Assembly: GCF_010093305.1 (NCBI RefSeq)
Contig: NZ_PDWS01000004.1
Location: 124,001 to 188,000 of the forward strand
Reading direction: 5' to 3'
Source of the DNA: Pseudoxanthomonas sacheonensis
GTDB taxonomy: Bacteria > Pseudomonadota > Gammaproteobacteria > Xanthomonadales > Xanthomonadaceae
Length of the DNA stretch: 64,000 nt
Numbering within the stretch: position 1 is the stretch's first letter; each line of letters starts with the position of its first letter. Positions 4,119 through 19,793 of the stretch are shown here, piece after piece. The position numbers were made by a program, and so were the translations under genes. Below the pieces are notes generated by a model that searched no databases, was not told the DNA's origin, and saw only the letters and a list, made by a program, of their open reading frames with translations.

Positions 4119-4511
4119 CGCCGGCTCCACTCAAAACGCTAGGAACGCTGGTGAATACCAGCGTTCCGCTGGCCTTTGTGATCGGCCCCATGGAGGTTGT
4201 CCTGCTCACTTTTGCGACATATGTAAATAATTCACACCATGACTGTAAATAATTCACACCAGGCTCAATACCTAGAAACTTCATGCGGATACTGCCAGAT
4301 CTCACATTTCCGCCGTGGTTGCACGGCTAATAAGGCAGACCGATACTAAGCGTGCTCTTCACTGGTAAGCCCAGTGGGGAAGAAGAACTGCGACACCGGT
4401 GGGGACCGGCAGCTCAACGCCAGACACTAAGGGAATTGCAGAATTGATTTAGCCAATGCGCGTCGATTCCGCGGTTGTGGCTGCGTAGCGATGCGGGAAG
4501 GGAGTTCCGCT
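4119..4511. other. 393-bp gap upstream of the RHS gene with tandem repeats
   Basis: The gap carries two tandem copies of a 17-bp AT-rich repeat (4223-4239 and 4245-4261). The rest contains no convincing gene and no obvious hairpin terminator. The promoter of the large RHS gene is expected here, but I cannot point to it. Confidence 0.4.
4223..4261 (+). repeat. Two tandem 17-bp direct repeats, period 22
   Basis: TGTAAATAATTCACACC occurs at 4223-4239 and again, identical, at 4245-4261. A shorter identical core lies at 819-832 in the same orientation. Each unit has weak dyad symmetry (TGT...ACA). Tandem identical units near an edge are typical of IS-element ends or operator arrays. No transposase is nearby, so an IS remnant or a regulator array are both open. 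Confidence 0.7.
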
Positions 4512-7500
4512 ATGCCCGATACATCCTCTTCGCGGATTTCCTATTCTGCCGCCGCCCTTTTCCTGCTGGTTATAGCGATTCTGATTGCACCTGTCGGCGC
4601 ACTGGTCACCGATGTCCTCGCTCAGTCAACAGGTGGCAGCCCGCCCCAGTTACTGGTGGCAGCTGATCCACTTTCCGACGCGGTCTCCGCTACGGCCGCT
4701 GAGTTTCGGGTGGATGAGTCGGGTGCGGCAGCGTATTCGATCCCCCTCTATGCCGTGCCGGGCACCGCCGGGGTGGTGCCGCAGCTGACCTTGAGCTATT
4801 CCAGTCAAAATGGTGATGGCCCAGTGGGTAAAGGGTGGGCCATCGGCGGGTTGTCCTCGATTTCCCGATGCCGCGCGACGCGGGAAGCGGGTGACTTCAT
4901 CGGCGCGTCCACACCGGATGGCAATCCGACTCCGATCAACTTTTCGGCCAGCGACCGCTTCTGTCTGGATGGCCAGCGACTCATTCCTTCCAGTGCCACC
5001 TGCCCCGCCGCCAGCGGCATGACGGCCGCCGCCTTGGCGACCGAGGTCGATTCGTTTGCACGTGTGTGCGCTTATACAGCGGGCAGTGCCACGGGTGGAC
5101 CCAGCTTTTTTACCGTCGAGCGCAAGGATGGTTCGACCAGCTGGTATGGCGACCGGGACAACAACAATGCCTCCAATCGCCCCGACGGCTACTTCGAGAC
5201 CAATTCGACCCTCAATCCCGCCGCGGCCCTCACCTGGGCACAGACCCGGTTCCAGGATTCTACCGGCAACTACATTGACTACTTTTATTTGGAGAACCCG
5301 GCCGGTGCCGGCACGGGCGAGCACCTGATTAGCGAAGTCCGCTACACCGGTAAGACGGTGCTCAGCGGCCAGTCGGGTAGCGCTGCGGCGCCTTACGCCA
5401 AGGTGGTGTTCAACTATGTGGCTCGGCCTGCCGCAAAGTGGAGCAAGGGCTATGCCTCCGGCGGCACTTTCACCCAAAGCCGCAGCCTCTCAAGCATCAC
5501 TTCGTGCGCCACTTTGAGCTGCACCGTCCAAGAGCAAGTGCGGCATTACTTGCTCACCTATGCAGTCAGTGTTTCTGGCAGCAACTTCGATACGCTGATT
5601 GGCCTGCAGGAGTGCAGGGACAACACGGCCGCAGTGTGTGCATCGCCTACGTCCTTTGTCTGGAGCCAGGGCAAATACGAGTTCGCCACCCAAGAGACGC
5701 CAGCCAATCTGCCTCTGGACGTTTCTAGCTTCGCTGGTTTCAAATATGGGGATCTGGACGGGGATGGGCGTTCGGATCTAGTGTACCTGCGGGGCGGCTC
5801 AAGCAACTGCGCCACCAACTTCATCGTCACGGCCCTGAGCGTGCTCGATAGCGCGAACCGACCCGCTTTCGCGGGCGGCAGCACGCTGTGTTTACCCGCT
5901 TTCATTACCAACCGTGGGGAAGGTGCCTGGCACCTGTTCGACTACAACGGCGACGGCAGGGACGACTTGTTTGTGGCCGGCCCCGAATGGCAGGGCTGGC
6001 GGTTGTTTCCTTCCAATGGGTCCGGATTCGATAGCAGTCAGAACCTGATTGCCGGCCTGTCGTCGATCATTCCCTCTTACCCTGACAAGAACGACCAGGT
6101 TCAGCTGGCCGACCTCAACGGCGATGGGTTGACCGATGTGGTCTACCCGAACGGCGGCACGCTGCGCGCTCGCATCATGGAACGGCAGGGGGCTGGTTTC
6201 GGCTGGGGTATCGAGAAAACTATCGCCATCGATCAAGCCTCGCTGGACGGATGTGCCCAGCAAGATCCCGGCGACGATTGTTCCTACGCCGTTGCCGGCG
6301 CCCCCACTCCGAAGACGAATTTCGCCCAGTTGACGGACTTCAATGGTGATGCCACTTCGGACCTGCTGATCCAAGTCACCACGACGATCACCCAATACAA
6401 CTACGGCACACCTGGTTGTCCGATTGAGCCAATAGCGCCTCCGCAGGCTCAATCCACGGATCAGCCATCGTTGGCTGTATTGCCCTACGTTATACAAGAA
6501 GATTCTTCGACGGCCGCAGCGGAAAGCGTCGCGGCTGACTCTTGCGTCGTAACTACGATTACCAACAGGTTGCACGCACTATCGGTCCAGTCGTTAGGCG
6601 TCAACGGTGTGGCTTTGAAGTCGTATGGCGTAGTGTCGCCCGGCAATCCAGAGACCATTACGTTTGCAGATGCCAATGGCGACGGTCTATCGGACGTGTT
6701 CTATCGCGCTACCACCAACAGCGATTGGGTTTACCAGCTCAACAGGGGTACCGGCTTTATCTCCGGTGGAACATTGACTCAGACCGATTACCGGGAGCAG
6801 ACCCGCTTCCAAGATATCAATGGTGACGGTCGAGCCGACGCGCTGATGCTTACAGACAGCGGTGGCAACAAAGTCTACGCGGTGCGCTATGCCCTCAGTA
6901 CAGGAGGCTACGCAGCAACGACAACGCCAATTCTGGGAGGCAATGCCCGTCTTTGTACGGGAAGTTGCAATGAAGATCTATACGTGCCGATCTTCTCCGA
7001 CTTCGATGCGGATGGAAATCTTGATCTGATGTCGATCAGGATGGAAAACAATCCGGCGCTTTACGTCTCCCGCTCCAACAGTCGATTCGAGCCGCGCGAT
7101 ACGCTGGTAAAAGTGGTCAACGGCCTGGGTTCGGAAACCGACATCACTTATGCACCGCTGACCAACAAAGACCTTTATCGTCGTGACACCGGCTCGCGCA
7201 ATGGCTTGAACTGGGGCCGTGGTGCTCCCGTACTGGACCTGCTGGCGCCCAGCTATGCCGTGGCCCGTGTCTCCAGTAGTTCACCGCAGCTTGGAGCGCC
7301 TAGCGCCAAGGCGACCTTGCACTACCGTTACGCTGGCGCGCGCGTGCAGGCGGGTGGCCGGGGCTTTCTGGGCTTCCGCGAAATGATCACTATCGATCCC
7401 AATCAATCGGGTGGCCATGTTGTTACCACGACCACTTATGCCCAGAACTTCCCATTCGTGGGCGTGCCTACTCAAACCATCAAAGCTGCGGTTTTGAATC

Positions 7501-10500
7501 AGGCCTACCTGGTGCCAACCTGCCTCAGCAGCGCCATCACCAATGCCTGCTATGCGACCCCGGGACAAGGCTTCCCGAGCCTGGGTGGCAGTGTCTTCTC
7601 AAACGGTGTCCAAATTTGGGAGGTCGCTCCCGCCAGTTTAGCGACACAGACACCCTTGAACGTGCGCACCCTTGGCACGGAAGAATCGTTACGCGATCCC
7701 TTCACTGGATCTCAGACCAGCAAGGTCAGCACCGCTTTCACTTATGGCAGTTATGGCAATGTCAGCCAGACCAGGGTCGACACCTTCAACGGTACCGAAA
7801 GTGCTGCAGCTGTTACGGTCATCACCGCCAATACTTACACCGACGATGTGGCCAAATGGCGCCTGGGTCGCCTGACTGCGAGCACGATCACTCACCGTAG
7901 GCCTAGCCAACCTGATGTCGTGCGCACCACGGGCTTCAGCTACAGCATGGGCGGCGCAGCGACGGGATTGTTGTCGGAAGAGCGAACCCAGCCTGGTGGC
8001 AGTGCGGACCAGGCACTCACCAAGACTTACACACTCGATCAATATGGCAATCGCGTGCAGTCAGTGATCTGCGGTGCGCCGGCAACCTCCTGTAGCACCA
8101 CAGGCTTCCAGTTCCATCCCGCTGCATTGAACGCGGTGAAGCGTTACTCGCGCGTCGAGTACGACGCGCAAGGACGGTTCCCGGTAACCACGATAGAGCC
8201 GTTCTGGAATGGAACGGGCACGGTGGAACTTACGACCAGTCGCGTGGTGGAACGCAATATTTTCGGCGACGCGGTCAACGTCCTCGACGTCAACAACGTA
8301 CGCACCTTTGCGGTCAAGGGCCTGTTGGGGCGTGACTATTACGGGTGGGCGCAGACCAGTCCCAACGCTACCCCGGGCAACGGGGGCATGACATCGCTCA
8401 CCACCTATCGCTGGTGCGGCAGCCAGGTGAATTGCCCGCAAGGGGCGAAGGTCAGGCAGCAGGTCGTTACCTTGGGATCCCCTCGCCAATGGACTTACCT
8501 CGACGTCCTGGGGCGACCGGTGATGAAGGCGGTTGAGACTTTCAACACCAACGTCATCGGCAAGGACGTAGCCGCAACCTGCACGGCCTATGACGTTACC
8601 GGCAAGCCCATCAAAGCCTCCAATCCGTTCTTCCTGGCCGGCACGGGCGGAACCGATGGGCCCACCGGGTTGGATGCGGTCTGCACCTCAGCCTCCCGGC
8701 TCTGGACCACCACCACGTACGATTTGCTGGGACGCCCTACCCGGGTGGAAACACCGGACCCTAACGGCACCGCGGCGGTCACTAACGCCTATAGCAACCT
8801 GACGACAGGTGCCAGGGATCCCCGTGGAAATTTGACCAATAGTTTCCGCAACGGCAAAGGGGAATTGACCAAGGTCGTCGATGCCACCGGGCTGGCCACG
8901 TATTACAACTATTTTGCCGACGGCACGCTTGGCAGCGTCTTGCGCGATGCCGGGCGCGGAACGGTCGGCAACTATTTCGGCTATGACGTACTGGGCCGCA
9001 AGACTTCCCAGCAGGACCCTGACAGCGGCCTGAGCACTTTCCAGTACAACGCGCTGGGCGAAGTGATCGTGCAGATCGACGCCAAAGGACAACGTACCGA
9101 GAACGAGTACGACGCCCGCGGCCGGGTCTGGCGGCGAACGGTGAAGACCGCCGGCGGCACCATCGAGACCCAGTCCACTTTCACTTTCGACACCGCTACC
9201 AATGGTGCTGGCCAGCTGGCCAGTGAAAGCATCACCGGCACGTATGCCGCATGGAGCGGACAAAGCGCCTTGGCCTTGGGCTACACCCGTAGTGCTACCT
9301 ACGACGCGATGGGTCGTGGCCTGACCACCGCCACCACGATCGATGGGGTTGCCTACGCCACCTTCACGCATTACGACGAGTTGGGCCGCGCCTATCGCGG
9401 CCAGGACGCAAGTGGACGCTGGGTCAAGACCGAGTACGACGCTCGCGGTTTCGTACGCGCGGTTTGCAACAGCATAGAGACCGACACCGCACCCACGTGT
9501 CCTGCGGATGCCAACACTTACGTCGCCACGTTGACCACGGACGAGTGGGGCCATGTCACCAAGGAACGGCGCGGCAACAGCGCGGCGCTGGAGGTCAACC
9601 GAACTTACTACGCCCAGAATGGCAAGGTGGCCGAGATTTGCGGCGGTACCAGCGCGGGCTGCAACTTGGTGAAGGAAGGGTACGGATGGGATCTGGCGGG
9701 CAATCTCAGTACGCATAGCAAGGAAACGCGCTATGTCGAGACCTTTACCTACGACAGTCTGAATCGGCTGCGCACTACCTATCTGGCACAGCAGGACGGT
9801 GTGCCCGTCAATCAGCTGATGCAGAATTATGAGTACGACCAGTTGGGCAACATCTGCCATCGCGACACTCATGGCTGGGCCAGCCGCGACTACACCTATG
9901 CTGGTCGCGCCGGTTGCGGATTGGGCGGGGCCAACAGTACGCAAGGCTCCGGCGGCACGGGGACCTTGGGTCCGGGTCAGGTTACGGCGCTGGTGGACGC
10001 CACGACCCTCAACCAGTACTACGATGCCAATGGCAACATGATCCAGCGCGACGGGCCGGTGGCGGGCAACGATTGGGTGCTCAAGTACACCGCGGCCAAC
10101 CAGGCCCACGAGATCACCAAAGACACCGGCGAGCGCATGCGGTTCTGGTACGGCGCGGACGGGGCGCGCTACAAGAGCGAGGACGGAGCGAAGAAGACGC
10201 TATACCTGGGCAATGTGGAGATCGTTACCGATGGCGCTGTCGTGACGACACGGCGCACCATCGCCGGCGTCATGCTGCAGACGGTGGTGGGAACCACGGC
10301 CACCAACTATTACCTGTTCCATGACCAGCTGGGCAGCCTGGTGCGTATCGCCAATGCCGCCGGTGCCGTGGTGAGCAGCATGGATTTCCTGGCATTCGGC
10401 GGGCGTCGGAACACCGATACCCAAGCCGCCAACGGTACGCCGCCCAGCCTGACGCCGCGCGGGTTCACCGGACACGAGATGCTCGACAGCGTGGGCCTGA

Positions 10501-11684
10501 TCCACATGAACGGGCGCATCTACGATCAGTACCTGGGCAGATTCCTGCAGCCCGATCCGGTGATTCAGACACCGGATAACGCGCAGAGTTGGAATGCCTA
10601 CACCTATTGCTTCAACAATCCATTGGCGTATACCGACCCCAGCGGGAATATCAGTCTCAGGCAGGGATTGGCGCTCGTCATTGGGGCAGTTGCTGCAATA
10701 TTCGGCCAGTACTACATCACCCAGGGCATGTACGCGGCCGCGTTCGGGGTGGCGATTGCTGGTGGATTTGCGGCTGGGTATGTGGGCACCGGGACGCTGA
10801 AAGGCGGGGTGCAAGGGGCCTTTGCGGCAGGGCTAACAATGGGTGTCGGAGTTGCTTTTCAAGGTGCGAACATCTATGCACAGATGTTTGCGCAAGGACT
10901 GAGTGGCGGCATCGTAGAAGGCATGAATGGCGGCGACTTCGGCAATGGGTTTCTGTCCGCCGGATTGACGACGGCCTTCATGCCGCAGGTGGGCTTCATT
11001 AATAATGACTATGCTCGGACTGCGGTAGGAGCCATCGTCGGCGGGTCGATTTCAAAGGCCACGGGCGGGAAGTTTGCTAACGGAGCGATCAGCGGAGCTA
11101 TCCAAGGAGCGATGTCGAAAACCAATCGCGCAGAAGAACTAAATGCCTCAGGCAATAATGAATTTGGCTCATATGAAACAGAAGCCCCAGAAGGATTTAA
11201 CCTGCTTCGCGAGAAGTACCCAGAAATTGACGCTCGTATGGACTCATACTGGGATAGTTCTTTCAAAGGAAATTCAAGGAGAGAATACGGATTCCTCGGT
11301 GTTGAGAACCTTGAAGCGACGCAGATGCGTTTTTTGCAGCTGGAAGCAAAATGGTCATGGAACCCAATGTCATTTGGTTACAAGTCGATCGCAATGGATC
11401 CGAGTACGCTAAAAGGGAAGTTTTTTGCAGCAGGATTGAATCCTGCGGAATGGAACATCAGGGTTGTCTATCACACACACCCGTTTGATTTCTGCAATGC
11501 TTTCTGTGGCCCCGGCTCTTCGGGGCTCGGACCTTCCTCAGGAGATCAAAGCCTCGCAAACAATAGATACTGGTCGAAGAGCTATTTCGTGGTTCGTCAA
11601 ATGCAGGGCATGACTGCACAAGGTATTCCAACCTACCAAGACCTTTATTACGGACCTAGCGCAATGAATCCAAATAGCAAGTAA
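4512..11684 (+). CDS. SpvB/TcdB/RHS-repeat polymorphic toxin with JAB-like C-terminal tip
   Basis: This 2,390-residue protein starts with a basic N-terminus and a hydrophobic segment (about 8-34) suiting a signal peptide or membrane anchor. An SpvB-type domain follows (about 50-110, including GWAIGGLSSISRC). Next are at least six FG-GAP/VCBS-like DxNGDGxxD repeats (5750-7030), then a TcdB middle/N-terminal segment (near 7110, VVNGLGSETDITYAPL). Many YDxxGRxxR RHS/YD repeats follow (8700-10300). The RHS core ends with YLGRFLQPDP and NPLAYTDPSGN (to about 10650). The last 344 residues are a variable tip: a glycine-rich hydrophobic stretch, then H-T-H-P (H2321, H2323) and S-S-G-D (D2345), the layout of JAB/MPN-type (DUF4329-like) metallopeptidases with a Cys-containing insert. 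The shell should enclose the tip; target and export route are unknown. I chose the ATG at 4512 because AAGGGAG lies 7 bases before it; an ATG at 4491 has no such site. Base composition falls in the tip. Confidence 0.9.
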   Translation: MPDTSSSRISYSAAALFLLVIAILIAPVGALVTDVLAQSTGGSPPQLLVAADPLSDAVSATAAEFRVDESGAAAYSIPLYAVPGTAGVVPQLTLSYSSQNGDGPVGKGWAIGGLSSISRCRATREAGDFIGASTPDGNPTPINFSASDRFCLDGQRLIPSSATCPAASGMTAAALATEVDSFARVCAYTAGSATGGPSFFTVERKDGSTSWYGDRDNNNASNRPDGYFETNSTLNPAAALTWAQTRFQDSTGNYIDYFYLENPAGAGTGEHLISEVRYTGKTVLSGQSGSAAAPYAKVVFNYVARPAAKWSKGYASGGTFTQSRSLSSITSCATLSCTVQEQVRHYLLTYAVSVSGSNFDTLIGLQECRDNTAAVCASPTSFVWSQGKYEFATQETPANLPLDVSSFAGFKYGDLDGDGRSDLVYLRGGSSNCATNFIVTALSVLDSANRPAFAGGSTLCLPAFITNRGEGAWHLFDYNGDGRDDLFVAGPEWQGWRLFPSNGSGFDSSQNLIAGLSSIIPSYPDKNDQVQLADLNGDGLTDVVYPNGGTLRARIMERQGAGFGWGIEKTIAIDQASLDGCAQQDPGDDCSYAVAGAPTPKTNFAQLTDFNGDATSDLLIQVTTTITQYNYGTPGCPIEPIAPPQAQSTDQPSLAVLPYVIQEDSSTAAAESVAADSCVVTTITNRLHALSVQSLGVNGVALKSYGVVSPGNPETITFADANGDGLSDVFYRATTNSDWVYQLNRGTGFISGGTLTQTDYREQTRFQDINGDGRADALMLTDSGGNKVYAVRYALSTGGYAATTTPILGGNARLCTGSCNEDLYVPIFSDFDADGNLDLMSIRMENNPALYVSRSNSRFEPRDTLVKVVNGLGSETDITYAPLTNKDLYRRDTGSRNGLNWGRGAPVLDLLAPSYAVARVSSSSPQLGAPSAKATLHYRYAGARVQAGGRGFLGFREMITIDPNQSGGHVVTTTTYAQNFPFVGVPTQTIKAAVLNQAYLVPTCLSSAITNACYATPGQGFPSLGGSVFSNGVQIWEVAPASLATQTPLNVRTLGTEESLRDPFTGSQTSKVSTAFTYGSYGNVSQTRVDTFNGTESAAAVTVITANTYTDDVAKWRLGRLTASTITHRRPSQPDVVRTTGFSYSMGGAATGLLSEERTQPGGSADQALTKTYTLDQYGNRVQSVICGAPATSCSTTGFQFHPAALNAVKRYSRVEYDAQGRFPVTTIEPFWNGTGTVELTTSRVVERNIFGDAVNVLDVNNVRTFAVKGLLGRDYYGWAQTSPNATPGNGGMTSLTTYRWCGSQVNCPQGAKVRQQVVTLGSPRQWTYLDVLGRPVMKAVETFNTNVIGKDVAATCTAYDVTGKPIKASNPFFLAGTGGTDGPTGLDAVCTSASRLWTTTTYDLLGRPTRVETPDPNGTAAVTNAYSNLTTGARDPRGNLTNSFRNGKGELTKVVDATGLATYYNYFADGTLGSVLRDAGRGTVGNYFGYDVLGRKTSQQDPDSGLSTFQYNALGEVIVQIDAKGQRTENEYDARGRVWRRTVKTAGGTIETQSTFTFDTATNGAGQLASESITGTYAAWSGQSALALGYTRSATYDAMGRGLTTATTIDGVAYATFTHYDELGRAYRGQDASGRWVKTEYDARGFVRAVCNSIETDTAPTCPADANTYVATLTTDEWGHVTKERRGNSAALEVNRTYYAQNGKVAEICGGTSAGCNLVKEGYGWDLAGNLSTHSKETRYVETFTYDSLNRLRTTYLAQQDGVPVNQLMQNYEYDQLGNICHRDTHGWASRDYTYAGRAGCGLGGANSTQGSGGTGTLGPGQVTALVDATTLNQYYDANGNMIQRDGPVAGNDWVLKYTAANQAHEITKDTGERMRFWYGADGARYKSEDGAKKTLYLGNVEIVTDGAVVTTRRTIAGVMLQTVVGTTATNYYLFHDQLGSLVRIANAAGAVVSSMDFLAFGGRRNTDTQAANGTPPSLTPRGFTGHEMLDSVGLIHMNGRIYDQYLGRFLQPDPVIQTPDNAQSWNAYTYCFNNPLAYTDPSGNISLRQGLALVIGAVAAIFGQYYITQGMYAAAFGVAIAGGFAAGYVGTGTLKGGVQGAFAAGLTMGVGVAFQGANIYAQMFAQGLSGGIVEGMNGGDFGNGFLSAGLTTAFMPQVGFINNDYARTAVGAIVGGSISKATGGKFANGAISGAIQGAMSKTNRAEELNASGNNEFGSYETEAPEGFNLLREKYPEIDARMDSYWDSSFKGNSRREYGFLGVENLEATQMRFLQLEAKWSWNPMSFGYKSIAMDPSTLKGKFFAAGLNPAEWNIRVVYHTHPFDFCNAFCGPGSSGLGPSSGDQSLANNRYWSKSYFVVRQMQGMTAQGIPTYQDLYYGPSAMNPNSK

Positions 11685-13745: not shown

Positions 13746-13936
13746 GAATTCATTCAAGCGGAATCTAGCTCGGAGTCGGCTAGTCAGACCGGGGTGCATC
13801 AGCTGTCCTATCTTCGATGATCATGTCGCCGATGCGCGTCGGTCGGAACAGTGATGACTGCCTCTGACCAAAGAGGACCCGCAGGTTGGCTGTTGAGTCT
13901 CACCAATTGACACCCGGGGCCGGCAATAATGTGGGG

Positions 13937-14410
13937 ATGAACCCCGCCTCTCGCGATAGTGGGCTGAGTGCCCCCGCCTACGGTCTGCTGCTCGGCCATA
14001 CGCGCTGCCACTACTGCTACTCCCAGACGCCCACGGCCGCGCTGTGGGTGTCTTCGTTTGTCGAGACGGACAAAGAGGACGTGGTGGACCTAGGCGACGG
14101 AGCGCTATTGCACTACATCGAATACCTGGATGAGGGCGCGGCTGCGTTCGTGCGCGGACACGCCCCCTGGCTGCGCCCGGCTAGCACGCGTACGTCCGGT
14201 CAGACCTACCTTGCTCACCATTGCACCACGTGCGGTGCAATCCAGGGCGATCACTTCGTGTTTTCTCCAGACGGCCCCTATTGGCCGCAGGACAATGGCG
14301 ACCTGTCACGCCTGCGCTTCATTGAGGGGCCGGGTGCGCTGATAGCCCGGGCTTCGGCTGGGCAGAGTGCATGGATGGATCGGGTGACGCATGTCTGCAG
14401 CCGGGAGTGA
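13937..14410 (+). CDS. Hypothetical protein with two CxxC pairs, first gene of the CoiA-like/HEPN operon
   Basis: The 157-residue product contains a CHYC pair (about residues 24-27) and a second CTTC pair about 70 residues later (HHCTTCGAIQGDHF), the usual spacing for a zinc-binding ribbon split by an insertion. No signal peptide or membrane span is seen, so it is probably cytosolic. The start is uncertain: ATG at 13937 fits the region where motifs begin, but GTG at 13931 and TTG at 13886 are also open, and none has a clear Shine-Dalgarno sequence. Its end overlaps the start of the CoiA-like gene by 20 bases, which implies translational coupling and a shared role. I do not recognise a named family. 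Confidence 0.6.
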   Translation: MNPASRDSGLSAPAYGLLLGHTRCHYCYSQTPTAALWVSSFVETDKEDVVDLGDGALLHYIEYLDEGAAAFVRGHAPWLRPASTRTSGQTYLAHHCTTCGAIQGDHFVFSPDGPYWPQDNGDLSRLRFIEGPGALIARASAGQSAWMDRVTHVCSRE

Positions 14411-15899
14411 GAGGCGGGCCGTCCCGGCTGAGGATCGCCAATACGACCAGGTCTGGGACAAAGATGCGGGCGATTATGTGTCCCTGACCGAGTTCCTGGG
14501 CGATGGCACGTATGGCGAGATCATCGCCGACAGGCGGGTAGCGCTGGAGAACGACCTGGTCGAGGGCAAGGAGCGGTTCGTGTGCCCGGATTGCGAGAAG
14601 GCGATGGTGCTGCGATCCATCCCCACACGGGACAGGACTGAAGACCGCTTTTATTTCCGCCACCGCATCGACGATGGCACTTGCTCCGGCCGGAAGGGCT
14701 TATCGCCCGCGGCAATCTGCGCGCGCAAGTATGACCACGCCAAAGAAGGAGTCCGGCACAAGTTGTTCAAGCAGCTGATTGCCGAGAGCATCGCTGCTGA
14801 TCCGCGATTCACCGACACCCGCGTGGAGGCCCGCTGGAAGGATGCTGATGGTGTCCGCTGGCGCCAGCCTGACGTGCAAAGTGTGTGGCAAGGCCGCCGC
14901 GTGGCCTTTGAGGTCCAGCTGTCCACGACCTTTCTGCATGTCATCGCCGAGCGCATGACCTTCTACCGCCACAACGACGGCGCATTGCTCTGGCTTTTCC
15001 GGGACTTGAACCCCGACGAGTTCAAGCTCGCCGAGGACGACATTTTTTATTCGAACAATCGCAACGCGTTTCGGGTGGGCGTGGATACGGTGGAGCGCTC
15101 CCGGGAACTGGGGCGCTTCATGCTCGGATGCGTTTGGCACGAACCACACCTGGACGAACGCGGCATTCTGGAAGATAGGGTTCAGCGGAGAATAGTGGGC
15201 TTCGACGAGCTCACCTTCGATGTGAGCGCCGGCGGCGTGCCCCGTGCTTTCTACTCCGACTACGACAATAAGCTGGCTGCTTGCCAGCAGAAGCAAGAGC
15301 AGGAACGTCAGGCGAAGAGGGAAGCACGCGACCAGGTGCTGCGTGACGCGTTGGAAGCAGCGGTGCTCAACTTCTCCATGGCCGATGAAGGTAACGACGA
15401 TTGGTTGGAAATTCGCCAACGATTCCTGGGGCGGGGCTTCGATCTACCCCCGCGGCTTTATTACGACGAGGGTCCGTTTTACCTGCTCCAAGCCGCATAC
15501 TCGGCCAAGCACGGCAAGCCCGTGGCCTGTGGCATCAAGAACCTGATGGGCTTGGCCAACAGCTTGTTCAATCTCCACAAGGACGCCTTGTGGGTGTTCT
15601 CGGTCATGCTCAGGCACTTCGATCGCGGCCACGACCTCACGGCCAACGGAAACGTGGACGGATGGAAGAAGAAGCGGGACGAATATCGGGAAGGGTGGTT
15701 CCTTGGGGATCCCACGTTCGAACCGAACCGCCGCTATGACAACTTGCTGGCGTTTCTTTTTCCGGACGCGGCCCACGCACTTCGGCAGTCTCCATCGCTG
15801 GTAGAAACCCTGCGGCGCCGGCGCCAACCGGCCAATCGCAGTCAGGAGGCCGCTGCCGCAGGGGAGTCCAAGAGAATAGGGGGTGCTCATGGCCGTTGA
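14391..15899 (+). CDS. CoiA-like (DUF6035-type) PD-(D/E)XK nuclease family protein
   Basis: The 502-residue product has an N-terminal Cys motif (CPDC, 65-68) followed by FYFRHR (87-92), the layout of the zinc-finger-like region that precedes the nuclease in competence protein CoiA. The nuclease core follows: a conserved helix EGVRHKLFKQLIAE (119-132), RQPDV (158-162) and AFEVQLST (172-179), giving PD...E-x-Q, the CoiA-type version of the PD-(D/E)XK signature. A coiled, charged stretch (about 300-320) separates it from a C-terminal region of unknown fold. The protein should act on DNA in the cytosol. It overlaps the upstream CxxC gene by 20 bases and the downstream 58-residue gene by 11 bases, so the set is one operon. 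A role in DNA uptake is less likely than defence or mobile-element biology, given the neighbours; this is inference. Confidence 0.7.
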   Translation: MSAAGSERRAVPAEDRQYDQVWDKDAGDYVSLTEFLGDGTYGEIIADRRVALENDLVEGKERFVCPDCEKAMVLRSIPTRDRTEDRFYFRHRIDDGTCSGRKGLSPAAICARKYDHAKEGVRHKLFKQLIAESIAADPRFTDTRVEARWKDADGVRWRQPDVQSVWQGRRVAFEVQLSTTFLHVIAERMTFYRHNDGALLWLFRDLNPDEFKLAEDDIFYSNNRNAFRVGVDTVERSRELGRFMLGCVWHEPHLDERGILEDRVQRRIVGFDELTFDVSAGGVPRAFYSDYDNKLAACQQKQEQERQAKREARDQVLRDALEAAVLNFSMADEGNDDWLEIRQRFLGRGFDLPPRLYYDEGPFYLLQAAYSAKHGKPVACGIKNLMGLANSLFNLHKDALWVFSVMLRHFDRGHDLTANGNVDGWKKKRDEYREGWFLGDPTFEPNRRYDNLLAFLFPDAAHALRQSPSLVETLRRRRQPANRSQEAAAAGESKRIGGAHGR

Positions 15900-16065
15900 A
15901 TTCGATGGGTCCAGCGTTCCATTGGCGCAGACGCCTTGGCGTAGTCACGTCATTCCCGACACTTTGCGCATCCTCACGCGTGCACCGTCGGTCGAAACTC
16001 GCGCGCTCATCAAGCGGTTGCAGGTGCGCTTCCAGCAAGTTCCAACGAAGGCAGAACAGCCATGA
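15889..16065 (+). CDS. 58-residue coupled small protein
   Basis: The ATG at 15889 has a strong ribosome binding site (AGGGGG at 15878-15883, five bases away) inside the end of the CoiA-like gene, and the stop codon overlaps the start of the next gene as ATGA (16062-16065). These two overlaps and the site make it a real gene despite its size. The product is soluble, with a basic C-terminal half (TRALIKRLQVRFQQV) that may form an amphipathic helix. No family is recognised. Its position between a nuclease-like gene and a HEPN gene suggests a linker, regulator or antitoxin-like role; that is inference from layout. Confidence 0.65.
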   Translation: MAVEFDGSSVPLAQTPWRSHVIPDTLRILTRAPSVETRALIKRLQVRFQQVPTKAEQP

Positions 16066-16820
16066 AATCGGAAGAATTGAAGCAGCGTGTCGACCAGGTT
16101 GAAGGGTTCATCCGGGCCCTGACGCAGGAATGCCACATCCTGGATGAGCGCAGACACATCCTCGCGCCCCTGCTCCAAAATTCCGAGATCCAACAGGCCT
16201 TGAAAAAGAAGCTGGACAAGACACCAGGGGTGGGCGCTTGGAACCATTTGGCTCCACTACTCGGCCAGGATCTCTTACGCGACCAGGCGCGGCTCTTCCT
16301 CGACGACGACAGCCGATCGGGAAGTTTGACCAACCTCTGGCGCAAACTCCGCGTCGACCCGGCGATCAAGGATCACTTTCGTGAAGTCTATGGCCGAATG
16401 TTCGACGACTTGCGCACCGACACGATAGAAGGCCTTTCTCCAGAGAGCTCAGCAGCCATCATGGAGCAATTCGCACAGCAAGATCGGGACAAGAACTACG
16501 CGCGGTTCGACGAAGATTGGGAACGGGTGGAAGCCGAGATGGCCGTCCTCGGCAGTAATCCAGTGGCAGCAAAAATAAAGACGTTCCGCAATAAGCGCCA
16601 CGCCCATTTCGAAATGCAGAAGTTGGACGAAGAGCCAAAGCCGTTCGATGCGGATTCCATTGGGCTGACCTTCGATGAGGTGTTGGCGTTCGGTGACCTC
16701 GGTCAGGCCCTCGTGGCCAAACTTGGCCTATTGCTGACGGGGACAAGTTGGGATCCGCAGGAGTTTGCGCAGGCGCACGCCAAACAAGGCACTGACATGT
16801 GGAAGACGCTTGCCAATTAA
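16062..16820 (+). CDS. AbiU2-like HEPN-domain protein
   Basis: The 252-residue product is mostly helical. Residues 176-182 read RNKRHAH, preceded by a helix (VAAKIKTF), which matches the R-x4-6-H signature of HEPN ribonucleases and the fRnk..AH motif of the AbiU2-type group (abortive infection). An upstream LTNLWRKLRVDP stretch (about 89-100) also fits that group. HEPN proteins of this type are commonly RNases or toxins; here the residues needed for activity (Arg and terminal His) are present. It is the last gene of the overlapping operon, coupled through ATGA to the 58-residue gene. A role in phage defence is inferred from the family and the nuclease-like partner. I am moderately sure of the HEPN call and less sure of the AbiU2 subgroup. 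Confidence 0.6.
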   Translation: MKSEELKQRVDQVEGFIRALTQECHILDERRHILAPLLQNSEIQQALKKKLDKTPGVGAWNHLAPLLGQDLLRDQARLFLDDDSRSGSLTNLWRKLRVDPAIKDHFREVYGRMFDDLRTDTIEGLSPESSAAIMEQFAQQDRDKNYARFDEDWERVEAEMAVLGSNPVAAKIKTFRNKRHAHFEMQKLDEEPKPFDADSIGLTFDEVLAFGDLGQALVAKLGLLLTGTSWDPQEFAQAHAKQGTDMWKTLAN

Positions 16821-16944: not shown

Positions 16945-16977
16945 CGGCACCCGGTTCGATTCCGACCAGGGCACCCC
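16945..16977 (+). other. tRNA 3'-end-like fragment
   Basis: The stretch contains GGTTCGATTCCGA (16953-16965), a perfect T-arm-like sequence, followed by GGGCACC (16969-16975), which resembles the acceptor end of tRNA-Phe-type genes. No matching D-arm, anticodon arm or 5' acceptor strand precedes it, so it is not a functional tRNA. Such fragments mark the edge of islands that integrate into tRNA genes, which fits the accessory genes to its left. Confidence 0.45.
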
Positions 16978-17000: not shown

Positions 17001-17366
17001 TTAGCCGGTCGCCCCTGCGGCCAGGTTAGTGATGTAGCTGCGGATCACCTTAGCCTTGCCGCTGGCCACATAGTGCTCGGCGGTTTCGCCGCCCAGTTCG
17101 GTCAATGGCACGTTGCGGAACCAGTAGATCGCACGCTCGGCGTCACCGCCGTTGAAATCCAGAAGCATGGCGATCACGCTGATCGAGTTCCGCATGTAGT
17201 CCTGCACCTTCTCCGACTCCGGAGCATGCAGGAGGGCCGTGTGGTGCACGTGCGCAAGGTCAGCCAAGCGTTGCATGCTGATGTGCAGGCGTTCGACGTA
17301 GGCCTTTGGGGAAATGATCGCGTCTTCGCGTAAGCCCACAGCGAAGCTGGTCGAGTCCTCACGCAT
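17001..17366 (-). CDS. MbcA/ParS/Xre-type (DUF2384-like) antitoxin domain protein
   Basis: The C-terminal 40 residues of this 121-residue protein (AIYWFRNVPLTELGGETAEH, then YVASGKAKVIRSYITNLAAG) match the DUF2384/MbcA-ParS antitoxin domain: Trp, a P-L-x-x-LGG-xT turn, a Gly-Lys segment and a final helix ending in Gly. The N-terminal part (SPKAYVERLHISMQRLADLAHVHHTAL) reads as a helix-turn-helix. Such proteins usually pair with a RES-domain toxin encoded just downstream, but none is present here, so it is an orphan or acts as a stand-alone regulator. The start at 17366 is chosen because GGGGAAGAG lies about nine bases upstream; GTG at 17405 is the longer alternative. It sits near the island edge. 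Confidence 0.7.
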   Translation of the reverse strand: MREDSTSFAVGLREDAIISPKAYVERLHISMQRLADLAHVHHTALLHAPESEKVQDYMRNSISVIAMLLDFNGGDAERAIYWFRNVPLTELGGETAEHYVASGKAKVIRSYITNLAAGATG

Positions 17367-17493
17367 TACGGCACTCTTCCCCTGCATGTGGAGCCGGACG
17401 ACCACTGCAAGCCATCGTATAAGGCTGCAAGGCGGACCTCCAAGACGGTAGGACGGACGGTAGCGTAGAGATGCGGAATTCTTAGGCTTGTCC

Positions 17494-18255: not shown

Positions 18256-18725
18256 GACGGATCTAGTCATTCTTAAGTCGCTAGCCAATCACCTGGAGAT
18301 CGCCAAAAGGGTTGACCAGTGCCGTCCGCGTACCGCGCAGGTCTCTCATTGGTCCTTGGCCAACTTCGTCGCTTCGGCATCGCATGCGACTTATGGGCGC
18401 CATCCGCGTTTAGATGTTGATCGTCCGTCGCTTAGCTCACCACTTTGGTCGCCGATGGCGACCATTAGACTCCCATTCGCCGACATTTGATAAAGAATTG
18501 AGCCAGCTCTGCGTCAGATCGCCTACACGGAAATACTCGCTTTATGGCTTTAGCGTTCTCACCTTTTGACCCCCCCAGTACCTGCCATATCCCTAAATCT
18601 ACAGTGGCGAAAACACCGCCCGGGCAGCCTTTCGCAGCCACTCGTCAACTTTCAAAGCATCCATGCGGTTGACAGCCTTGCTTCCGGTTTTCAGACTGCC
18701 CGGACTTTAACGCCGCGAGGCCCCG
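18256..18725. other. 470-bp gap between the accessory region and the biotin operon
   Basis: This gap marks the change from accessory to core genes. No coding frame, RNA gene or clear terminator is seen. It must hold the bio operon promoter, but I see no inverted repeat clear enough to call a BirA-type operator. Confidence 0.4.
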
Positions 18726-19793
18726 ATGTCCGCACAAGCTCCGATCACCGCCAGTCCGGCTTCCACGGGCGCGATCCGCCACGACTGGCAGCAGTCCGAA
18801 TTGCTGGCCCTGTTCGAACTGCCGTTCACCGAACTCCTGCACCGGGCCGCCAGCGTGCACCGTCAGCATTTCGATCCGGCCGAAGTCCAGGTTTCCACTC
18901 TTTTGTCGGTCAAGACCGGCGGCTGCCCCGAGGACTGCGCCTACTGCCCGCAGGCCCAGCGCTACCACACCGGCGTGGACGCGCAGAAATTGATGAGCAC
19001 CGAGGCGGTGCTGGAAAAGGCCAGGCAGGCCAAGGCCGCCGGCGCCTCGCGCTTCTGCATGGGCGCGGCCTGGCGCTCGCCCAAGGACCGCGATATCCCC
19101 AAGGTCGCGGCCATGATCCGCGAAGTGAAGGCGCTGGGGCTGGAAACCTGCGCCACCCTGGGCATGCTCAGCGCGCCGCAGGCCGATGCCTTGAAGTCGG
19201 CCGGCCTGGACTACTACAACCACAACCTGGACACCGCACCGGATTTCTACGGCCAGATCATCCATACCCGCGAATACCAGGACCGCCTGGACACGCTGGA
19301 ACACGTGCGCGACGCCGGCATGAAGACCTGCTGCGGCGGCATCGTCGGCTTGGGCGAGTCGCGCGCCCAGCGCGCCGGCCTGCTGCTGGCGCTGGCCAAC
19401 CTGCCGGCGCATCCGGATTCGGTGCCGATCAACCGCCTGGTGCAGGTGGAAGGCACCCCGCTGCACGGCACCGCCGAACTGGATCCGTTCGAATTCGTGC
19501 GCACCATCGCAATCGCGCGGATCACCATGCCTCACTCTATGGTCAGATTGTCGGCTGGCCGCGAATCCATGAGCGACGAGCTGCAGGCGCTGTGCTTCGC
19601 CGCTGGCGCCAATTCGATCTTCTACGGGGAAAAACTGTTGACCACCGGCAACCCGGACGTGGAACGCGACCAGGCGCTGTTCGCGCGCCTGGGCCTGCGG
19701 CCCATGCCGGTGGAGCCAGCCATGCCAGCGCCAGGGGGAACCGTGCATGCCGACATCGTCGAACACAACCACGCCTGCGGACGCGCCGCCTAA
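18726..19793 (+). CDS. bioB: Biotin synthase
   Basis: BioB is the radical-SAM enzyme that inserts sulfur into dethiobiotin, the last step of biotin synthesis. The 355-residue product has the CxxxCxxC iron-sulfur motif (C67, C71, C74) in [12 protein letters not shown], the family-specific YYNHNLDT (about 160-167), [13 protein letters not shown] (about 199-211) and SAGRE near 277. Length and order are normal for the family. The ATG has GAGG five bases upstream. It leads a four-gene operon bioB-bioF-bioH-bioC; bioF starts 47 bases before bioB ends, so translation is coupled. Confidence 0.97.

Follow-up and report, generated by a model that had tools for sequence, protein, structure and literature searches.

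Introduction

The closest described relatives of the genes treated here are known as follows. AbiU2 is a listed HEPN family that occurs in operons with a Sel1-repeat gene and in restriction-modification (R-M) operons, and it is marked 'Yes' in what we take to be the motif column (PMC3710099). Lactococcal AbiU consists of abiU1 and abiU2, and abiU2 alone did not inhibit the growth of Escherichia coli (PMC3985639). A CoiA-domain protein is among the E. coli defence systems found experimentally (PMC9519451), and DUF6988 has newly been implicated in defence by DefensePredictor (PMC13092281). Here we analyse four overlapping genes in a 64,000-nucleotide stretch of Pseudoxanthomonas sacheonensis (the window; contig NZ_PDWS01000004.1, positions 124,001 to 188,000), which a first-pass annotation had proposed as a four-component defence system. 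Our comparisons suggest that the cluster is probably a block of island cargo, rearranged and in part decayed, of the kind found on genomic islands in the Stenotrophomonas/Lysobacter family, in which a nuclease–HEPN pair has been broken by a deletion.

Gene 4 of the cluster resembles AbiU2 in that it scores as HEPN_AbiU2 (Pfam PF18734) and keeps R-x5-H; it differs in its partner, which was a 305-amino-acid nuclease of no Pfam family (here called nuc305) and is now a stump. Gene 2 shares catalytic residues and nuclease fold matches with CoiA-like nucleases but falls under the CoiA_nuc cutoff. Related genomes and loci are given below by G and L numbers.

Organisation of the operon

The four genes are:

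13937..14410, + strand: gene 1, 157-amino-acid putative zinc-binding protein (C24xxC27 ... H95-C96xxC99) of no named family, probably island cargo
14391..15899, + strand: gene 2, intact 502-amino-acid DUF7830 + DUF6035 protein, PD-(D/E)XK-type nuclease by Pfam, invariant residues and fold
15889..16065, + strand: gene 3, 58-amino-acid stump of the ~305-amino-acid PD-(D/E)XK-type nuclease nuc305, matching both of its ends
16062..16820, + strand: gene 4, intact 252-amino-acid HEPN_AbiU2 protein (Pfam, R176-x5-H182), cognate nuclease lost

Re-derivation of coordinates and frames confirmed four open reading frames (ORFs) on the + strand, each with an ATG start and a single terminal stop, that overlap by 20, 11 and 4 bases, the last overlap being ATGA. 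For gene 1, the frame can also be read from a TTG at 13886. The motifs reported by the first-pass annotation (two CxxC pairs, CPDC, FYFRH, PD...E-x-Q and RNKRHAH) are all present. The operon DNA is single-copy in its own genome (4.04 Mb, 44-contig draft), and no PADLOC-DB 2.0.0 model matched any of the four proteins at E<=1.

Gene 3 is the remnant of a longer nuclease

In G228, the gene directly 5' of the HEPN homologue encodes 304 amino acids, and the 58-residue protein of the window matches its two ends. Against a nuc305 profile built from seven full-length proteins, residues 4-31 of gene 3 align with positions 3-30 (23.4 bits) and residues 29-57 with positions 276-304 (38.7 bits); the best of 1000 shuffled sequences reached 4.7 bits. 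A search of the whole genome with this profile recovers the window in two pieces, with E=1.2e-8 (276-304) and 6.1e-4 (3-30), and reported no further nuc305 match at E<=1e-3, six of the ten first-look candidates having been scored. Gene 3 has thus lost ~247 codons by an in-frame internal deletion with its junction near 15975, and the catalytic core is gone: the deleted part holds D216/D219 and E232-x-K234, invariant in all seven proteins. The DNA 5' of the junction matches two of the seven nuc305 loci, L057 and L058 (15901-15974 at 73%; 15937-15976 at 85%), and the DNA 3' of it (15975 or 15994-15997 onward, into the HEPN gene) matches six of the seven at 67–70%. G195 (L042) matches the window at the DNA level only within genes 1 and 4. 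The first-pass annotation had counted the 58-residue protein as a gene in its own right; judged by these alignments, the ORF is a deletion stump and not an independent gene.

The intact nuclease–HEPN pair in relatives

Nine HEPN places outside the window were compared: G228, G195 and seven loci from a scan of genome contigs with two short peptide patterns derived from four sequences, which was not exhaustive (G023 is counted as L060). In seven of the nine (G228, G195, L054-L058), a full-length nuc305 overlaps the HEPN gene by 4 bases, the same overlap as in the window. L060 has a HEPN gene without detectable nuc305; in L059, the HEPN lacks its first 60 residues and lies ~1.7 kb from the contig end. 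In L060 (S. geniculata, region 6119-9303), a 413-amino-acid gene and a 98-amino-acid ORF that repeats part of it flank the orphan HEPN gene, which suggests that the sequence around it was duplicated or received an insertion.

Gene 1 lies within 2 kb 5' of the HEPN gene in four of the nine places (G228, L054, L057, L058); in G195 it is 3.4 kb away, on the opposite side. A DUF6573 gene stands between gene 1 and nuc305 in G228 (by Pfam) and in L054 and L057 (both by similarity), and L055 keeps the last 25 residues of DUF6573. In the window, DUF6573 was not detected and DUF6035 occupies its place. We deduce the family name from those relatives that carry a name (L054-L056, L058-L060). Patchy occurrence, a ParA-type gene (Pfam) and relaxase-like genes recognised by eye are the grounds for presuming these regions to be islands.

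The nuclease nuc305 has no Pfam family of its own, its profile found no credible match in the PDB, and its structure model was too poor for use (mean predicted local distance difference test score 45.9, predicted template modelling score 0.33). Relatives occur in six plasmid records, and none was found in viral contigs. Twelve relatives lie outside the family, six from the phylum sample (a 55-residue match in G529 was left out) and six from the plasmid records; in none did the stretch examined contain a HEPN gene of this AbiU2 subgroup. Four of the twelve, distantly related to the lost gene, sit between helicase/restriction and methyltransferase genes (L115 as annotated; L098, L099 and L100 by eye), as an accessory nuclease of a type III-like R-M system might. 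The Stenotrophomonas/Lysobacter nuc305 differs in pairing with HEPN_AbiU2, and no R-M neighbour was recognised in its ORF lists, in which no family search was made. One record, L116 (NZ_CP110863.1), is labelled as a Lactiplantibacillus plantarum plasmid; its genes are high in GC and look proteobacterial by eye, and it is possibly mislabelled or contaminated.

Within the intact pairs, the two halves can differ strongly in their divergence between close islands:

L057, 6078-7777, and L058, 6075-7765: discordant nuclease and HEPN divergence
L040, 8801-10473, and L054, 6087-7762: discordant nuclease and HEPN divergence

Between G228 and L054, the HEPN proteins are 99.6% and the nuclease proteins 70% identical (N-terminal part 59%, C-terminal part 84%), within a 5.6-kb DNA stretch that is 92% identical. 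Between L057 and L058, nuc305 is 97% and HEPN 71% identical, with flanking DNA at 86–90% (one stretch further upstream at 74%). The halves therefore seem to have been exchanged or to have diversified separately.

Name searches of the literature, with most subscription papers and all preprints outside their reach, gave no description of a nuc305–AbiU2 pair. The intact ~305-amino-acid nuclease overlapping an AbiU2-type HEPN in Stenotrophomonas and Lysobacter is apparently an undescribed unit. Since AbiU2 in R-M operons is already noted in PMC3710099, the pair varies a known theme.

Gene 4, the HEPN protein

Gene 4 belongs to HEPN_AbiU2 (E=1.1e-12; 48.3 bits, cutoff 26.8), in agreement with the first-pass assignment. 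Its motif R176NKRHAH182 (R-x5-H) is intact, and R176 and H182 are invariant in nine of nine aligned sequences. Identity is 61–69% to the five HEPN proteins with an intact nuclease upstream in G228, L054, L056, L057 and L058. Constraint was gauged by private changes per codon position. The window HEPN has 11/127, 8/157 and 10/38 at positions 1, 2 and 3, which is fewer than L056 (17/133, 16/165, 14/42) and more than the four others, for which the set contains closer sisters. No relatives of gene 4 were found in viral contigs, phage records or plasmids, and sequence and profile searches of the PDB gave no credible match.

Gene 2, the DUF6035 nuclease, and its neighbours

The first-pass annotation had called gene 2 a CoiA/DUF6035-like nuclease. 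The DUF6035 assignment (E=2.3e-12; 47.6 bits, cutoff 22.6) and the nuclease core stand, with DUF7830 as a second domain (E=8.8e-8); CoiA_nuc, at 15.7 bits, stays under its cutoff of 20.3. The motifs CPDC (65-68), FYFRH (87-91) and P160-D161...E174-x-Q176 are intact, and E119, D161, E174, Q176, C65, C68 and H91 are invariant in 15 of 15 sequences. Fold matches are mostly to PD-(D/E)XK nucleases, and the model has the alpha-beta-beta-beta-alpha-beta arrangement of the nuclease fold; taken alone, this would be moderate evidence for a nuclease. Sequence and profile searches of the PDB found no credible match. Gene 2 is 41–45% identical to the four DUF6035 copies of the order sample that were compared. 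DUF6035 occurs in 33 plasmid records; viral contigs gave no match for gene 2 alone and three for its alignment, and phage records gave one partial match. In the same name searches, DUF6035 did not appear in a defence context; its name turned up in one paper, which deals with another subject.

We compared 24 DUF6035 places beyond the window: seven from the order sample, six from the phylum sample (four with flanks of only ~0.8-1.5 kb), seven of the 33 plasmid records, three viral contigs and a partial copy in L057; a fragment in G031 was left out. DUF6035 adjoins HEPN or nuc305 in none of the 24; the HEPN profile covers this AbiU2 subgroup, and a HEPN of another family next to DUF6035 or nuc305 may have escaped it. 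In three places (G228, L057, G195), DUF6035 lies ~7-11 kb from a HEPN gene. The four-gene arrangement of the window recurs in none of the 24 DUF6035 places and none of the nine HEPN places, and the adjacency across genomes expected of the proposed system was not seen. Compared with G228, gene 1 of the window is 71% and HEPN 69% identical, whereas DUF6035 is only 41% identical; between G228 and G195, DUF6035 is 83% and HEPN 55% identical. These values suggest that DUF6035 moves INDEPENDENTLY and travels independently of HEPN and gene 1.

Elsewhere, DUF6035 has a neighbour in DUF6988 (PADLOC candidate PDC-S52), found beside it in G228, G086 and G195:

L040, 3-1609: DUF6035–DUF6988
L013, 6844-8846: DUF6035–DUF6988
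L014, 6850-9814: DUF6035–DUF6988

In G228 and G086 there is a 4-base overlap between the two genes (the G086 DUF6988 diverges after ~146 residues), and in G195 a UDG-superfamily-like ORF lies between them. DUF6035–DUF6988 may itself form a defence pair; DUF6988 is, however, not part of the window operon. The idea that DUF6988 is a hidden HEPN_AbiU2 was discarded, the two profiles having no match (probability 0.7%).

Gene 1

The two CxxC pairs of gene 1 (C24/C27 and C96/C99) belong to a set of residues invariant in nine of nine aligned sequences: C24, C27, W78, H95, C96, C99 and Q103-G104-D105. No family in Pfam, PADLOC, NCBIfam or PHROGs scored above its cutoff. Identity is 68–74% to the copies 5' of an intact nuclease–HEPN pair in G228, L054, L057 and L058. 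Relatives were found in 12 of the 397 genomes of the order sample, its own genome included, and in five plasmid records, and none among viral contigs.

Genomic surroundings

The operon lies in a variable region by bioB that contains a large RHS-type gene (neighbours scanned in part: six plus three). GC content per operon gene is 0.56-0.64, compared with 0.657 across 18.7-64 kb of the window. Stretches upstream of bioB were compared from seven of the ten other genus-sample genomes that have a strong bioB match. In all seven, the DNA match to the window begins only at 18598-18766, and window 1-18.6 kb finds no match in the 3.8-14.6 kb upstream of bioB in any of them; the region is therefore variable relative to those genomes.

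The RHS-type gene (4491-11684, + strand) encodes 2397 amino acids, with SpvB, TcdB middle/N-terminal and FG-GAP above cutoff and the RHS repeat just below. It is followed up to 13745 by small ORFs in a stretch of low GC content (0.51), and together they resemble a polymorphic-toxin region equipped with genes of immunity type. A 134-amino-acid protein at 17001-17405 (- strand) has an Xre/MbcA/ParS toxin-binding C-terminus below threshold (18.9 bits, threshold 24.5). A putative tRNA attachment site at 16953-16975, 3' of the HEPN gene, which by eye looked like a tRNA 3' end, was rejected: it is single-copy in the genome at <=2 mismatches, and ARAGORN finds no tRNA anywhere in the window.

Discussion

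We consider it probable that the operon is decayed island cargo, a reading that builds on observed homologies and gene orders, on a deletion of defined extent and on the preserved motifs of genes 2 and 4. The order in relatives is gene 1 – DUF6573 – nuc305 – HEPN, with nuc305 (a more variable N-terminal half and a C-terminal PD-(D/E)XK part) and HEPN_AbiU2 as a pair of overlapping genes. The window has the DUF6035 gene in the DUF6573 slot, and the in-frame deletion has left a nuc305 stump that retains only the overlap with HEPN. In relatives, nuc305 may recognise or cut foreign DNA and license the HEPN RNase for abortive infection; that abiU2 alone left the growth of E. coli uninhibited (PMC3985639) is consistent with a licensing partner. 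The window pair could not work as built; its HEPN would be an unlicensed orphan, and its DUF6035 a solo DNase, probably directed against mobile elements.

Several observations weigh against this reading. The identities of the window to G195 lie close together (gene 1 39%, DUF6035 42%, HEPN 52%); the contrast seen with G228 is gone, which leaves G228 as the basis for giving DUF6035 a separate origin. The parts also co-occur at genome level. Of the 396 genomes in the order sample besides the window's own, 11 carry gene 1 and eight DUF6035; all three HEPN-bearing genomes have gene 1 (p=1.6e-5) and two of the three have DUF6035 (p=0.001), and two of the 11 gene 1 genomes have DUF6035 (p=0.018). 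Our interpretation is that the genes are cargo shared by islands and lie several kb apart (in G023, gene 1 and HEPN are on different contigs), yet they are not random neighbours. The first-pass annotation had named homologues lying mainly apart as a sign against its proposal, and that is largely how they lie; the weaker linkage at genome level is real, though not as this operon. DUF6573 was undetected in L058 and L056 as well, and the direction of its replacement by DUF6035 is inferred from present-day gene order. The island status of the window is deduced from patchy occurrence and the synteny break; no integrase came to light there, and the window derives from a single contig of a draft in 44 contigs. 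Finally, the window HEPN is without clear relaxation, which fits either a recent deletion or a HEPN that still serves.

In the most likely of the alternatives, the role of nuc305 as coupled, DNA-recognising partner of HEPN has passed to DUF6035; genes 2 and 4 would be a working hybrid and the stump a translational bridge between them. The two nucleases share an E...D...E-x-K/Q core (nuc305 core against DUF6035 core by hhalign, E=2.5e-4, probability only 43%), the 11- and 4-base overlaps preserve coupling into HEPN, and the HEPN motif is intact. The discordant histories of nuc305 and HEPN in intact islands (G228/L054, L057/L058) make such an exchange imaginable, though as one case, and DUF6035 can overlap another partner gene by 4 bases, as it does DUF6988 in G228 and G086. 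Yet the window is a single instance against 24 places in which DUF6035 does not adjoin HEPN, and DUF6988 has no profile match to HEPN_AbiU2. We regard the exchange as unlikely. Marginally less doubtful is the general form of the idea, that the nuclease–HEPN pair is a modular defence unit whose halves are swapped between islands through recombination near the gene boundary. The window would then show an extreme step, in which nuc305 lost its core and DUF6035, from a different PD-(D/E)XK family, was installed upstream as new coupled partner of the same HEPN RNase.

Gene 3 might also have evolved from the nuclease ends into a small protein with a function, such as that of an antitoxin. Its frame is open, a ribosome-binding-like AGGGGG lies 5' of it, and the overlap with HEPN is conserved. 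The gene is, however, full length in all seven relatives that keep it, and the HEPN of L060, which has no detectable nuclease, needs no such protein; we consider this explanation highly improbable. A genuine four-gene defence system, as first proposed, has the overlaps throughout and the above-chance co-occurrence in its favour but is scarcely credible when its third part is a stump, HEPN has another nuclease partner in seven of nine places, and the arrangement is absent from all 24 DUF6035 and nine HEPN places.

The decayed-cargo reading corrects a plausible system call, in that a small ORF with clean overlaps is here the stump of an in-frame deletion, and such stumps could mislead the operon-based discovery of defence systems. 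A partner exchange, if real, would be a natural experiment on how the DNA-recognising and RNA-cutting parts of abortive infection are matched.

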